Shown piece after piece: positions 60,035 through 63,744 of a DNA stretch of 64,000 nt. This DNA is from Jiella sonneratiae (lineage in GTDB: Bacteria > Pseudomonadota > Alphaproteobacteria > Rhizobiales > Rhizobiaceae). The stretch covers positions 1-64,000 of the forward strand of contig NZ_JAFMPY010000004.1 of the NCBI RefSeq assembly GCF_017353515.1. The letters are read 5' to 3'. Each line of letters opens with the position of its first letter. Position 1 is the first letter of the stretch. The notes under the pieces were generated by a model. It did no database searches, was not told where the DNA came from, and saw nothing but the letters and a program-made list of their open reading frames with translations. The position numbers and the translations under genes are program-made.

Positions 60035-62050
60035 TCAGAGCCGGCGCAGTGCTTCGAAGCAGGCGGCGAAGGCCGAGCCCTGTCGCCAGAACACCGGCGG
60101 CGCGCCGATGGGCGCCTCGACGGTGACCTCGCCGCCGCCGGCGAATGTTTCGCCCGACCACAGATGCACCCATGTCTCGCCCTGAGGCAGATAAGTCGTC
60201 CACCGCGTCTCTCCGGCCTTCCAGACCGGCGCGACCAGCATGTCGCGGCCGAAGAGATAGGCGTCGAAGACCTCGAAGCAGCGGCGGTCCTCCTCGTGAT
60301 GGAAGAACAGCGGCCGCTGCAGCGGCCAGCCCTTTTCCGCCGCCTCGTCGCGCAGCGATGAGAGATAGGGCAGGAGCGCCCGGTGGATTCGTGTCATCCG
60401 GGCGAAGTGGGCGAGCACCGCGCCGTCCTCGTGGATCTGCAGGTTCTGCTTCGGCCGGTTGCCCTCGTGGCTCCGCATCACCGGCGTGAAGGCCGCCATC
60501 TCCGCCCAGCGCATGATCAGCTCGGGGGTGCGGAGGTTGCCGAAGAGGCTGGTGTATCCGCCGATGTCGGAGTGGTGATAGGCGTTGCCGAGGAGCCCGG
60601 AGGACAGCGCCCCGACGATGGCGGTGACGAGGCCGTCGTGGCGGGAGAAGTCGACCGACTGGTCCCCCGCCCAGACGAGCGGGCAGTGCGCCTGGATGCC
60701 CGAATAGCCGGCCCGCATGAAGAACACCACGTCGCCGGTGCGCCCGCGCTTCTCGACGGCGCGGGCATTCACCGCCCCCCAGAGCACCGGCCACAGGTTG
60801 TGCATCAGCCGCGGATCGGCGCCGTTCTTCAGATGGAGGTCGATCGGCAGATATTCCCCGAAATCGGCCATCCAGCCGGACAGGCCGAGATCCAGCATGT
60901 TCTCGCCGATCACCCGTTCCTCGAACCAGCGGCAGGCGTCGGGATCGGTGAAGTCGACGACGCCGCAGTCGAACTCGCCGAAATCAACGAGATGGGTGCG
61001 GCCCGCCTCGTTGGTCGCGAAATAGCCCTTCGCCTCGGCCTCGCGGAACAGCGCGCCGTCGTCGCAGAGATAAGGATTGACGTAGCCGAGGAAGCGGATG
61101 CCGCGTTCGCCGAGTTCTGCGATGCGGCGCTTCAGGTCCGGATAGCGCGTCCCGCTCGCCTGCCAGTCCCAGAAGAGGCGGGTGCCGAAGGAGGTCTCGC
61201 GCACCCCCGACCAGTCCTCGCACCAGAGCGCCGAGACCGCCGCGCCCGCTTCGACGTAGCGTTCGAGCGTGTCGAAGGAGGCGGCCCCGTGCTTCAGCCC
61301 GACGATCGCGCCTTCCATCGCCCAGTCCGGCAGCTTCGGCTGGCGGCCGAAGCGATCGGCCATGGCGGTGACGAGGCCGGCGATCGAACCCCGCGCGAAG
61401 AACTCGATGCGCTCCGGCATCGCCCAGACCTCGATCTCGTGGAAGCCCCGGTGGCGGAAGTCGAGGACCGCATAGGCGGTGGTCTCGACATGCGCGGCGT
61501 AGCGGCGCGAGGAGAGGAAGGTTGGCTGCGGATAGTTGGTGTTGAAGTAGTCGCCGCCGGCGCGCCCCGTCCGGTCCGCCTCGAAGGTGATCGCCGTCGT
61601 CTTGTCGCGGCCGACGCCGGGCTCGGAGGTCCACATCGGAAAGCGCCGGCCGGAAAGGTCGAGATAGGACATCTGCTCGCCGCCGCCGAAGAGACGTTCG
61701 CCCTCCTCCGCGACGAGCCGCAGCCAGAAGCGGTTGAAGCCGGGTGCGGCGGCTTCGACCCGAAGCATCGAGCGACCGGGCTCGGCGGTCACCGTCAGCC
61801 AAAGCAGCGGCGGCTCGGCGGGCGAGGGCGCGAGCGCGATGCGCCAGCCGTCGCCCTGCCGCGACGGCGCGGCATCGGCAAGCGGCAGGCGGGCGGTGAC
61901 GTAGTCCTCGATGTCGAAATTGCCGCGATACATCGCCATCCGCTCCTCGCCGCGGCCGAGGAAGACGGCGGGCGCCTCCCGTCGGTGCGAGAGGATGAGG
62001 CGGTCGTCGAGGAAAAGGTCGAAGCCGCCGTCGGCCGGTTCGCAGCGCAT
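60035..62050 (-). CDS. yihQ: Sulfoquinovosidase (GH31 family)
   Basis: A 671-residue GH31 glycosidase matching YihQ, which frees sulfoquinovose from sulfoquinovosyl glycerol and diacylglycerol. The YihQ-type segment EQMSYLDLSGRRFPMWTSEP begins at residue 125. The nucleophile is Asp396 (WMADFGEYLP) and the acid/base Asp463 (WAGDQSVDFSRHDG). The sulfonate-binding residues known from E. coli YihQ (Arg301, Trp304, Tyr508) have equivalents Arg291, Trp294 (TRLFWDW) and Tyr499 (SDIGGYTS), at a constant offset of 9-10. Other GH31 alpha-glucosidases lack this set. No signal peptide. The start lies 23 nt after the dehydrogenase stop. Confidence 0.92.
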   Translation of the reverse strand: MRCEPADGGFDLFLDDRLILSHRREAPAVFLGRGEERMAMYRGNFDIEDYVTARLPLADAAPSRQGDGWRIALAPSPAEPPLLWLTVTAEPGRSMLRVEAAAPGFNRFWLRLVAEEGERLFGGGEQMSYLDLSGRRFPMWTSEPGVGRDKTTAITFEADRTGRAGGDYFNTNYPQPTFLSSRRYAAHVETTAYAVLDFRHRGFHEIEVWAMPERIEFFARGSIAGLVTAMADRFGRQPKLPDWAMEGAIVGLKHGAASFDTLERYVEAGAAVSALWCEDWSGVRETSFGTRLFWDWQASGTRYPDLKRRIAELGERGIRFLGYVNPYLCDDGALFREAEAKGYFATNEAGRTHLVDFGEFDCGVVDFTDPDACRWFEERVIGENMLDLGLSGWMADFGEYLPIDLHLKNGADPRLMHNLWPVLWGAVNARAVEKRGRTGDVVFFMRAGYSGIQAHCPLVWAGDQSVDFSRHDGLVTAIVGALSSGLLGNAYHHSDIGGYTSLFGNLRTPELIMRWAEMAAFTPVMRSHEGNRPKQNLQIHEDGAVLAHFARMTRIHRALLPYLSSLRDEAAEKGWPLQRPLFFHHEEDRRCFEVFDAYLFGRDMLVAPVWKAGETRWTTYLPQGETWVHLWSGETFAGGGEVTVEAPIGAPPVFWRQGSAFAACFEALRRL

Positions 62051-62073
62051 CGTTCCGGGCGCCTTTCCGCGCG

Positions 62074-62853
62074 TCAGTTCTGGGTGAGGCCGGCATCGAC
62101 GACGAAATTGGCGCCGGTGCAGCCGGCGCTCTCGTCGGAGCCGAGGAAGAGGGCGAGCCGCGCGACGTGGCCGGCGTCGAGGCGAAACTTCAGTGCCTGC
62201 AGGCGGATGAACTCGGCGTCGAGCTCCGGCGTCAGCCACAGCGCCTTCTGGCGCTCGGTGAGGATCGCGCCGGGGACGAGACAGTTCACCCTGATTCCCG
62301 ACGGCCCGAGCTCGCGGGCGAGGGTCCTCGTCATGCCGTTGATTGCGGCTTTCGCCGTCGTATAGCCGACCATGCCCGGCCGGCCGCGCATCCAGGAGAT
62401 CGAGCCGAGCATGACGACCGAGCCGCCGCCCTTCGCCGCCATGCCCTTCGACACCGCCTGGGTGGCGAAGAACTGGTGGTCGAGATTGAGCGACAGCATC
62501 CGCCGCCAATACTCGGGCTCGACGGCGCCCATCTCGTGCCGGTCGTCCTTGCCGGCATTGTTGACGAGGACGTCGACGCCGCCCGCCGCCGCCTCGATCG
62601 CAGCGATCGCCGCGCGCAGCCGCTCGGTGTCGGTGACGTCGCAGGCCGTGAAGCTCGCCCCCGTTTCCGCGGCGACGCGCTCGCCCGCCGCGACGTCGAC
62701 GTCGAGAAAGGCGACCCGCGATCGCTGCGCCGCGAAGGCGCGGACGATCGCCTCGCCGATCCCCGACGCACCGCCGGTGACGAGCACCGAGCGCCCTTCG
62801 AGGGAGCGGTAGCATACGCGGTCATCGGGGGTGGCCTGAGGCGTCGCGTCCAT
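62074..62853 (-). CDS. SDR dehydrogenase, probable sulfoquinovose 1-dehydrogenase
   Basis: A 259-residue [13 protein letters not shown] (26-35), [12 protein letters not shown], catalytic [21 protein letters not shown] (Ser and Tyr-x3-Lys), and [15 protein letters not shown] at the end. In the sulfo-Entner-Doudoroff pathway an SDR oxidises sulfoquinovose to 6-deoxy-6-sulfogluconolactone with NAD. Its position between a lactonase (3-nt gap) and a sulfoquinovosidase makes this the best assignment. By sequence alone it could be another sugar 1-dehydrogenase. Confidence 0.8.
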
Positions 62854-62856
62854 GGC

Positions 62857-63744
62857 TCAGACCTCCGCGTCGAAGAGCGGTTCGGCAAGGCCCGGAACCT
62901 CGGTCTCCATGGCGAAGACCCCGCCGGAATGCGGCAGGCGCTCCAGTTCCTCGGGCGCGCGGCCGCTCCGCGCCGACGTGACGTAGAGCGTCCTCAGGTC
63001 CCTGCCGCCGAAGGCGACCATCGTCGTGCACCGGGCCGGCACGGGATATTCGGCGAGCAGCTCGCCGCGCGGTGAACGGCGCTGCACCCGGCCGCCCTCC
63101 CAGAGCGCCGACCAGTAGCAGCCTTCGGCGTCGACGGCGCCGCCGTCCGGCCGGGCGCGGTCGGCGGCATCGGGGTCGAGCCGGGCGAAGACCCGGCGGT
63201 TCGTCGCCGCACCCGTCTCCTCGTCGTAGTCGTAGGCGTAGACGGCAAAGCGCGGCGTGTCCGAGTGGTACATCGTGCGGCCGTCCGGCGAGAAGGCGAG
63301 GCCGTTGGAGGTCATGATGCCGCCCTCGATCCTCTCGAGCCCGCGCCTGTCGTAGCGATAGAGGCCGGCCGTGCCGCCGTCGCCGGTCTCGTCGATGGTG
63401 CCGAGGACGAAGCGGCCGCGCGGGTCGGTGCGCCCGTCGTTGAAGCGGTTGGTCGCCGCGGGCTCGGCGTTCGGCGCCAGCATGGCGATGCGCTCGCCGT
63501 CGGGGCCGAGATGCCAGACGCCGGAGCGCAGGCCCGCGACGAAGCCGCCGCCCTTGCGGATCGCGAAGCAGCCGATCTCTTCCGAAAGGCCGATGGTGGT
63601 GTGGCGCCGGCTTGCCGGCTCGAAGCGATGGAGCTTCATGCCCTTGATGTCGACGAAGTAGAGCGCCTGCTCGGCGCCCGACCAGACCGGTCCTTCGCCG
63701 AGCTCGCAGCGGCTGTCGAGGACGAGGGAGAAGGGCGAGGTCAT
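62857..63744 (-). CDS. SMP-30/gluconolactonase-family lactonase, probable sulfogluconolactonase
   Basis: A 295-residue six-bladed propeller of the SMP-30 family. Metal ligands are visible: Glu in CELGEGPVW (residue 16), Asn in TNRFNDGRTDPRG, Asn in TSNGLAFSPDG and Asp in HSDTPRFAVYAYD. These enzymes open sugar-1,5-lactones. Next to the SDR and sulfoquinovosidase it most likely hydrolyses 6-deoxy-6-sulfogluconolactone to 6-deoxy-6-sulfogluconate. It appears to be the first gene of a three-gene operon. The dehydratase, aldolase and sulfolactaldehyde dehydrogenase of the pathway are not in the window. Confidence 0.85.
   Translation of the reverse strand: MTSPFSLVLDSRCELGEGPVWSGAEQALYFVDIKGMKLHRFEPASRRHTTIGLSEEIGCFAIRKGGGFVAGLRSGVWHLGPDGERIAMLAPNAEPAATNRFNDGRTDPRGRFVLGTIDETGDGGTAGLYRYDRRGLERIEGGIMTSNGLAFSPDGRTMYHSDTPRFAVYAYDYDEETGAATNRRVFARLDPDAADRARPDGGAVDAEGCYWSALWEGGRVQRRSPRGELLAEYPVPARCTTMVAFGGRDLRTLYVTSARSGRAPEELERLPHSGGVFAMETEVPGLAEPLFDAEV

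Follow-up and report, generated by a model that had tools for sequence, protein, structure and literature searches.

The subject of this analysis is the first 64,000 nucleotides (bases 1-64000, hereafter the window) of a 392,599-bp contig of Jiella sonneratiae (NZ_JAFMPY010000004.1, here C38; genome 5.15 Mb, completeness 98%), at the end of which three genes assigned to sulfoquinovose (SQ) degradation lie on the minus strand. They encode a GH31 sulfoquinovosidase of 671 aa (60035..62050), an NAD-type SQ dehydrogenase of the short-chain dehydrogenase/reductase (SDR) family of 259 aa (62074..62853) and an SMP-30/gluconolactonase-family protein of 295 aa (62857..63744), a probable sulfogluconolactone lactonase. 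As an earlier note on this DNA had described, the three open reading frames (ORFs) are co-directional and tightly spaced, with 3 nt between the SMP-30 and SDR genes and 23 nt between the SDR and GH31 genes. They are followed by a 356-bp gap (63745-64100, of which 63745..64000 is in the window) and then, on the same strand beyond the window, by a second GH31 gene (GH31b, C38 64101-66452), an ABC ATPase (66790-67896), two ABC permeases (67906-68952 and 68957-69949) and an ABC binding protein (about 71338 to 70052). That is to say, the window appears to end inside an operon for SQ uptake and first oxidation, and the same note was right both in reading the genes as the upper part of a sulfo-Entner-Doudoroff (sulfo-ED) pathway and in calling that pathway incomplete in the window. 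Together with candidate genes on the contigs C49, C4 and C8, they very probably make up a sulfo-ED route, encoded at four loci, that is complete as far as sulfolactate and continues to sulfite.

In comparison with the PDB, the GH31 enzyme matches 5ohy best (1,003 bits, E 9e-301), and the top six entries (5ohy, 5ohs, 8r56, 6pnr, 5aed and 5aee) score 676-1,003 bits, after which the seventh (5f7c) is at 174. Among them, 5ohy and 5ohs stand at about 1,000 bits, 8r56 and 6pnr, which carry generic GH31 names only, at 770-797, and E. coli YihQ at 676-678; 5ohy, named 'Alpha-glucosidase yihQ' in the PDB, is presumably an Agrobacterium enzyme. The NCBIfam model PRK10426 gives 916 bits against a cut-off of 553. 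Arg291, Trp294, Asp396, Asp463 and Tyr499 are all exactly in place, and Lys253 and Glu278, also motif positions, are present too; the catalytic Asp pair with the substrate-binding Arg, Trp and Tyr is what we take to be the sulfoquinovosidase motif. The alignment to Agrobacterium 5ohy/5ohs has a constant offset of 8 (283, 286, 388, 455 and 491), and position 455 is Asp in 5ohy and Asn in 5ohs, as expected of an acid/base mutant. The earlier note had placed the residues at a constant offset from E. coli YihQ; the residues stand, but the strict constancy does not, since the offsets are 10, 10, 9, 9 and 9 on the YihQ numbers that we assume (301, 304, 405, 472 and 508). The numbering Arg301/Trp304 of YihQ did not occur in open-access papers among the matches listed, and no paper using the motif names KERWY/QQRWY was found in the open-access literature. 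With its residues kept and the scores falling from 676 to 174 bits after six YihQ-like entries, the enzyme is assigned as a sulfoquinovosidase, as had been proposed.

The SDR matches the SQ 1-dehydrogenase 9gwu first in the PDB (307 bits, E 6e-91; runner-up 216 bits), and 152 of 253 aligned positions (60%) are identical to those of PpSQDH of Pseudomonas putida SQ1. In PpSQDH there are a tetrad N-S-Y-K, an Asp for NAD, the SQ contacts D99, R101, R152 and Q198, and R154, which acts via water (PMC12133307). The ten PpSQDH residues compared (D45, D99, R101, N119, S147, R152, R154, Y160, K164 and Q198) are all kept in the SDR, where they are D51, D103, R105, N123, S151, R156, R158, Y164, K168 and Q202. 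For a wider comparison, an SQ-locus set was used, consisting of 80 titled loci (L032-L111) found with the SQ dehydrogenase and selected from 235 confirmed stretches; gene-content counts over it are lower bounds, as the ORF picker misses genes, and the labels IlvD, SuyB, SlcC, LacI, epimerase and sulfatase were given to clusters by eye unless a family search is named. Over 69 SDR alignment rows (one from the window, 64 from titled loci and four that repeat some of the latter), Arg152 is kept in 69 and Arg154 in 63 (PpSQDH numbering). The C-terminal Gln260 of PpSQDH, which reaches the opposite subunit, is replaced by Asn in the window, the 69 rows having Asn in 66, His in two and a gap in one; it is a second-shell residue and is not counted as required. 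Judged by these residues, the SDR is an SQ dehydrogenase, and the likeness to the first enzymes of P. putida SQ1 that the earlier note had seen is borne out. A paralog of it (C38:333873-334637; L011 8873-9637) is 53% identical, has Glu and Gly at the places of the two sulfonate-site Arg, has a sugar ABC operon at a distance of about 7 kb and is probably another aldose dehydrogenase.

The SMP-30 protein gives 280 bits with Pfam SGL and clusters with genes of 54 of the 80 loci, with a best identity of 78%; its family and its neighbourhood are the grounds on which it is named a probable sulfogluconolactone lactonase. The Elstera SQ locus L087 is without a lactonase match in its fetched stretch, an absence also noted in PMC13372026, and in the SQ operon of J. 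flava an epimerase-like gene (L034 9090-9995) occupies the place of the lactonase.

It had been suggested that the missing parts might lie beyond 64000. This proved true of the importer, since an ABC importer and GH31b do follow on C38, but not of the lower genes: neither a PF00920 dehydratase nor a KDSG-type aldolase was found on C38 64000-100000, and the only aldehyde dehydrogenase there is a distant domain, 28-31% identical to SQ-locus enzymes, so that a position just past the window was rejected. The binding protein of the importer has a best PDB match of 58 bits, with no SmoF entry among its matches at E 0.001, while a control, the binding protein of the Microvirga SQ operon L044, matches SmoF at 658 bits; the latter belongs to a different binding-protein cluster, which is present in 40 of the 80 loci. 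The GH31b type occurs in eight of the 80, together with the permease type of the window's operon.

A dehydratase lies in the flank of 73 of the 80 SQ loci, and the seven without one are four of Jiella/Aurantimonas, one of Bradyrhizobium and two contigs of about 6 kb. Rhizobiaceae, Microvirga and other sulfo-ED operons encode the same enzymes as here, with the dehydratase flanking most of them and standing on another contig in this genome. In the four Microvirga loci L050, L061, L064 and L077, the order is permeases, ATPase, GH31b, dehydratase, aldolase, lactonase, SQ dehydrogenase and sulfoquinovosidase; in L061 one additional gene precedes the dehydratase and the stretch opens partway through the permeases, and in L064 and L077 the lactonase is preceded by an epimerase-like gene. 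The window's operon has this order and the same permease, ATPase and GH31b types, minus the dehydratase-aldolase pair, with the 356-bp gap in the slot of that pair. The gap contains a two-armed inverted repeat (about 63823-63962); a relic of the pair within it was sought and rejected (best tblastn E = 1.9). Four related genomes also keep a pair-less operon, with sulfoquinovosidases 71-80% and SQ dehydrogenases 81-84% identical, and in all five genomes the pair is located elsewhere. Gene linkage in the sulfo-ED pathway is regarded as usual, not defining.

In PMC9594981, the sulfo-ED families are given as PF13561, PF08450, PF00920 and PF03328, and all four are present in the genome. The search of the genome that the earlier note had called for returned candidates for the dehydratase and the aldolase on C49 and for the aldehyde dehydrogenase on C4. 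On C49, the candidate sulfogluconate (SG) dehydratase (PF00920, C49:78236-79978), one of six PF00920 genes of the genome, is followed after 12 bp by the candidate KDSG aldolase (PF03328, C49:79991-80818). The dehydratase is 56-79% identical to 74 SQ-locus dehydratases, and the aldolase 40-76% to SQ-locus aldolases. In the dehydratase tree (59 of 92 rows, one duplicate being removed and operon rows thinned), the C49 enzyme groups with SQ-operon and pair dehydratases in a clade of 49 rows (SH-aLRT 98). The PF00920 paralog at C38:231k was also considered as the SG dehydratase and rejected, for it lies outside this clade with the second copy of L048 and has the top score with the NCBIfam model for L-arabinonate dehydratase.

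The co-occurrence of these genes was followed in a panel of 61 genomes (the genome itself and 60 relatives), with thresholds of E <=1e-90 for the SQ dehydrogenase and of dehydratase >=76% plus aldolase >=66% for the pair. The SQ dehydrogenase is found in six of the 61 and the sulfoquinovosidase also in six, five of them shared. The pair occurs in eight, that is, in 6/6 genomes with the SQ dehydrogenase and in 2/55 without it (G004 and G008; Fisher p 5e-7, relatedness not corrected). SuyB, one of the enzymes of sulfolactate cleavage, occurs in 17 of the 61 (6/6 with the SQ dehydrogenase, 11/55 without; Fisher p 2e-4, likewise not corrected for relatedness). In an order-wide survey of 397 genomes, in which at most six first-look candidates were scored per genome, the SQ dehydrogenase (1e-95) is in eight and the aldolase (1e-85) in five, with four shared.

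For the next step, the aldehyde dehydrogenase at C4:11664-13127 is the candidate sulfolactaldehyde dehydrogenase. All 15 aldehyde dehydrogenase matches of the genome were compared by tblastn with 25 SQ-locus enzymes (L157 gave no match), and the C4 enzyme is the closest (56-75%; the next ones 54-60% and 46-54%). In a tree that omits four of the 15 (L147, L155, L156 and L157: wrong frame, multi-domain or partial) and in which the rows rel_G035_92 and rel_G020_66 were disregarded as wrong-ORF artefacts, it falls in a 25-row clade (support 100) with 19 of the 25 SQ-locus enzymes, 18 of Rhizobiaceae and Microvirga and one of Devosia, and with some further rows. On C8, SuyA-, SuyB-, SlcC- and SlcD-like genes stand in one line (C8:69628-73272) and are 67, 74, 61 and 51% identical, respectively, to those adjoining the sulfo-ED operon of L066. 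The SuyB-like protein belongs to PF04295, the family named for SuyAB in PMC9594981, where SuyAB is described as splitting (R)-sulfolactate into sulfite and pyruvate; NCBIfam has no specific name for it, and the galactarate dehydratase model gives 133 bits against a cut-off of 731. A SuyB-like gene is also seen near the sulfo-ED genes in 17 of the 80 loci (e.g., L066, L085, L089 and L105), often together with SuyA- and SlcC-like genes, so a single cluster covering the whole way from SQ to sulfite looks to be common.

From these sequences, residues, trees and co-occurrences, which are observed, the substrates, flux and regulation of the following route are inferred. The ABC importer would bring in SQ or SQ glycosides, and the GH31 sulfoquinovosidase would free SQ from the latter. 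The SDR would then oxidise C1 of SQ with NAD to sulfogluconolactone, and the SMP-30 enzyme would open this lactone to SG. On C49, the SG dehydratase and KDSG aldolase would yield pyruvate and sulfolactaldehyde, which the C4 aldehyde dehydrogenase would convert to sulfolactate, and the products of the C8 genes would finally release sulfite and a second pyruvate. Since candidates for the lower steps are present on other contigs, a different routing of SG, which the earlier note had left open, is not needed.

Several observations weigh against this four-locus route. The genes on C49, C4 and C8 are unlinked to the C38 operon, and the names of the dehydratase, aldolase, aldehyde dehydrogenase and Suy/Slc genes come entirely from comparison with SQ-locus genes. 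The backbone of the aldolase tree (51 rows, including 37 of 63 SQ-locus aldolases) is unresolved, so that the placement of the C49 aldolase neither supports nor contradicts the assignment. The SQ-type LacI of seven of the eight pair-carrying genomes was not found here at E 1e-70. Six of the 25 SQ-locus aldehyde dehydrogenases fall outside the clade of the C4 enzyme, two of the eight pair-carrying genomes (G002 and G011) have no match to it of at least 84%, and it sits in a cassette resembling a published sulfofucose cluster. No lactonase match was found in the 20 kb fetched for J. flava (L034/L029). In the order-wide survey, an aldolase match at 1e-85 is lacking in four of the eight genomes with the SQ dehydrogenase; among three of these, G078 has a dehydratase directly before the SQ dehydrogenase, and in G286 and G405 no dehydratase or aldolase was called in the fetched stretch.

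The alternative that survives best, although it is improbable, is that the upper three enzymes make SG which is excreted or used otherwise, and that the C49 pair serves another sugar acid, such as L-arabinonate. The pair is indeed unlinked and adjoins an aldo-keto reductase, an amidohydrolase and a second HpcH gene, presumably the set of fuconate-type sugar-acid pathways, and the NCBIfam name of its dehydratase is L-arabinonate dehydratase (909 bits). But five SQ-locus dehydratases score alike with this model (876-932 bits, one of them under the cut-off of 882) and the paralog at C38:231k scores highest (1,100), so the label does not discriminate; moreover, the tree groups the C49 dehydratase with those of SQ operons, and the pair tracks the SQ dehydrogenase across the 61 genomes. 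Sulfofucose as the substrate of the pair was also considered and found less likely, because the dehydratase published for sulfofucose belongs to the enolase type. It is more doubtful still that glucose or xylose freed by GH31b is the substrate of the SDR and lactonase, with the sulfoquinovosidase a mere neighbour: the nearest NCBIfam model of the SDR is D-xylose dehydrogenase (307 bits, under the cut-off of 400), and the best PDB matches of GH31b are maltase-glucoamylase and alpha-glucosidase, yet Arg156 and Arg158 of the SDR are the sulfonate-site Arg152 and Arg154 of PpSQDH, where the 53%-identical paralog has Glu and Gly. The least probable is that the upper genes are the decaying remains of an ancestral SQ operon whose lower half was lost. 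The pair-filled slot in Microvirga and the lactonase-less operon of J. flava would lend themselves to this view, but the reading frames of the sulfoquinovosidase and SQ dehydrogenase are uninterrupted, that of the lactonase has its full length, and the pair-less operon is kept in four related genomes, all five having the pair elsewhere.

Compared with the sulfo-ED pathway of P. putida SQ1, the four-locus route has the same dehydrogenase, lactonase, dehydratase and aldolase families (PMC12133307, PMC12890257, PMC9594981). It differs in its division among four loci, in the presence of a second GH31 and an ABC importer in the operon, and in the candidate sulfolactate sulfolyase of the genome; in P. 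putida SQ1, sulfolactate is excreted (PMC12133307). In the tandem sulfofucolytic-sulfolactate sulfolyase pathway of Paracoccus wurundjeri, a sulfo-sugar ED route is joined to SlcC and SuyAB (PMC12421959). The C4 cassette (L168, C4:1-20000, 3187-15090) contains an enolase-superfamily dehydratase (PF13378/PF02746), a LacI, an ABC importer, a zinc alcohol dehydrogenase, the aldehyde dehydrogenase, a PfkB kinase and a LacD-type aldolase (by eye), and shares with P. wurundjeri the enolase-type dehydratase, ABC, alcohol dehydrogenase, PfkB and aldolase kinds. The C49 dehydratase is of PF00920, the family that PMC12421959 gives for SQ, the sulfofucose enzyme there being of the enolase type. No open-access paper among the matches listed combined an SQ term with Jiella or Aurantimonas. 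The enzymes themselves are of known kinds, and what appears new is how the genes are laid out, an importer of non-SmoF type accompanied by a second GH31, and a hint of a self-standing SG module.

This last point comes from the surroundings of the pair. In G002, G004, G005, G007, G008 and G035, the pair adjoins the SQ-type LacI and TctC, TctB and TctA, a tripartite tricarboxylate importer, and in four genomes with an SQ operon (Jiella flava, Jiella sp. LLJ827, J. mangrovi and Aurantimonas sp. VKM B-3413) it lies away from that operon beside LacI and TctCBA. The aldehyde dehydrogenase is 8.7-9.7 kb from the pair in G004, G005, G007 and G008. The genome studied here is the exception, with no such LacI found at E 1e-70 and no such Tct genes within the 20 kb around its C49 pair. 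G004 and G008, of the same genus, have the pair unit and, at the thresholds used, no SQ dehydrogenase or sulfoquinovosidase. G155, of another family of the order, carries the LacI-TctCBA-pair unit as well (L176, G155:C1:1431001-1451000, 2579-17312) and has no SQ dehydrogenase at 1e-95; its TctC, TctB and TctA are 61, 43 and 69% identical to those of J. flava, and its dehydratase, aldolase and LacI 74, 57 and 50% to SQ-locus genes. The unit in G155 adjoins LarA-like, LarB, LarC, LarE and sulfate-permease-family genes, a hint of an extra epimerisation step. As G004, G008 and G155 have the pair and Tct importer with no SQ dehydrogenase detected, they are possible SG users, and we tentatively suggest that SG degradation forms a module of its own, which has an importer and can exist apart from SQ oxidation. 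If so, these bacteria would live on SG released by others; no description of SG as such a shared metabolite was found in the excerpts of open-access literature searched, and a separate dehydratase-aldolase-importer unit makes an SG trade between bacteria testable.

SQ ranks with the most abundant of the organosulfur compounds (PMC12890257). Because candidates for every step are present here though unlinked, surveys restricted to linked genes may underestimate the number of SQ degraders and of organisms that could carry SQ sulfur on to sulfite; cluster-based annotation would call this genome incomplete. By its NCBIfam names, the sulfoquinovosidase would be labelled 'alpha-glucosidase' (PRK10426) and the C49 candidate SG dehydratase (L018 10236-11975) 'L-arabinonate dehydratase' (PRK13016), and such names may hide SQ pathways in automatic annotation. 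Finally, two SQ-dehydrogenase homologs, 71 and 66% identical to that of the window (L177 9660-15428 and L178 9676-17065), have a sulfatase-like gene and an ABC importer of the nitrate/taurine type nearby (both by eye); no dehydratase or aldolase was called in the stretches fetched, and the substrate of these homologs may be a sulfated sugar.

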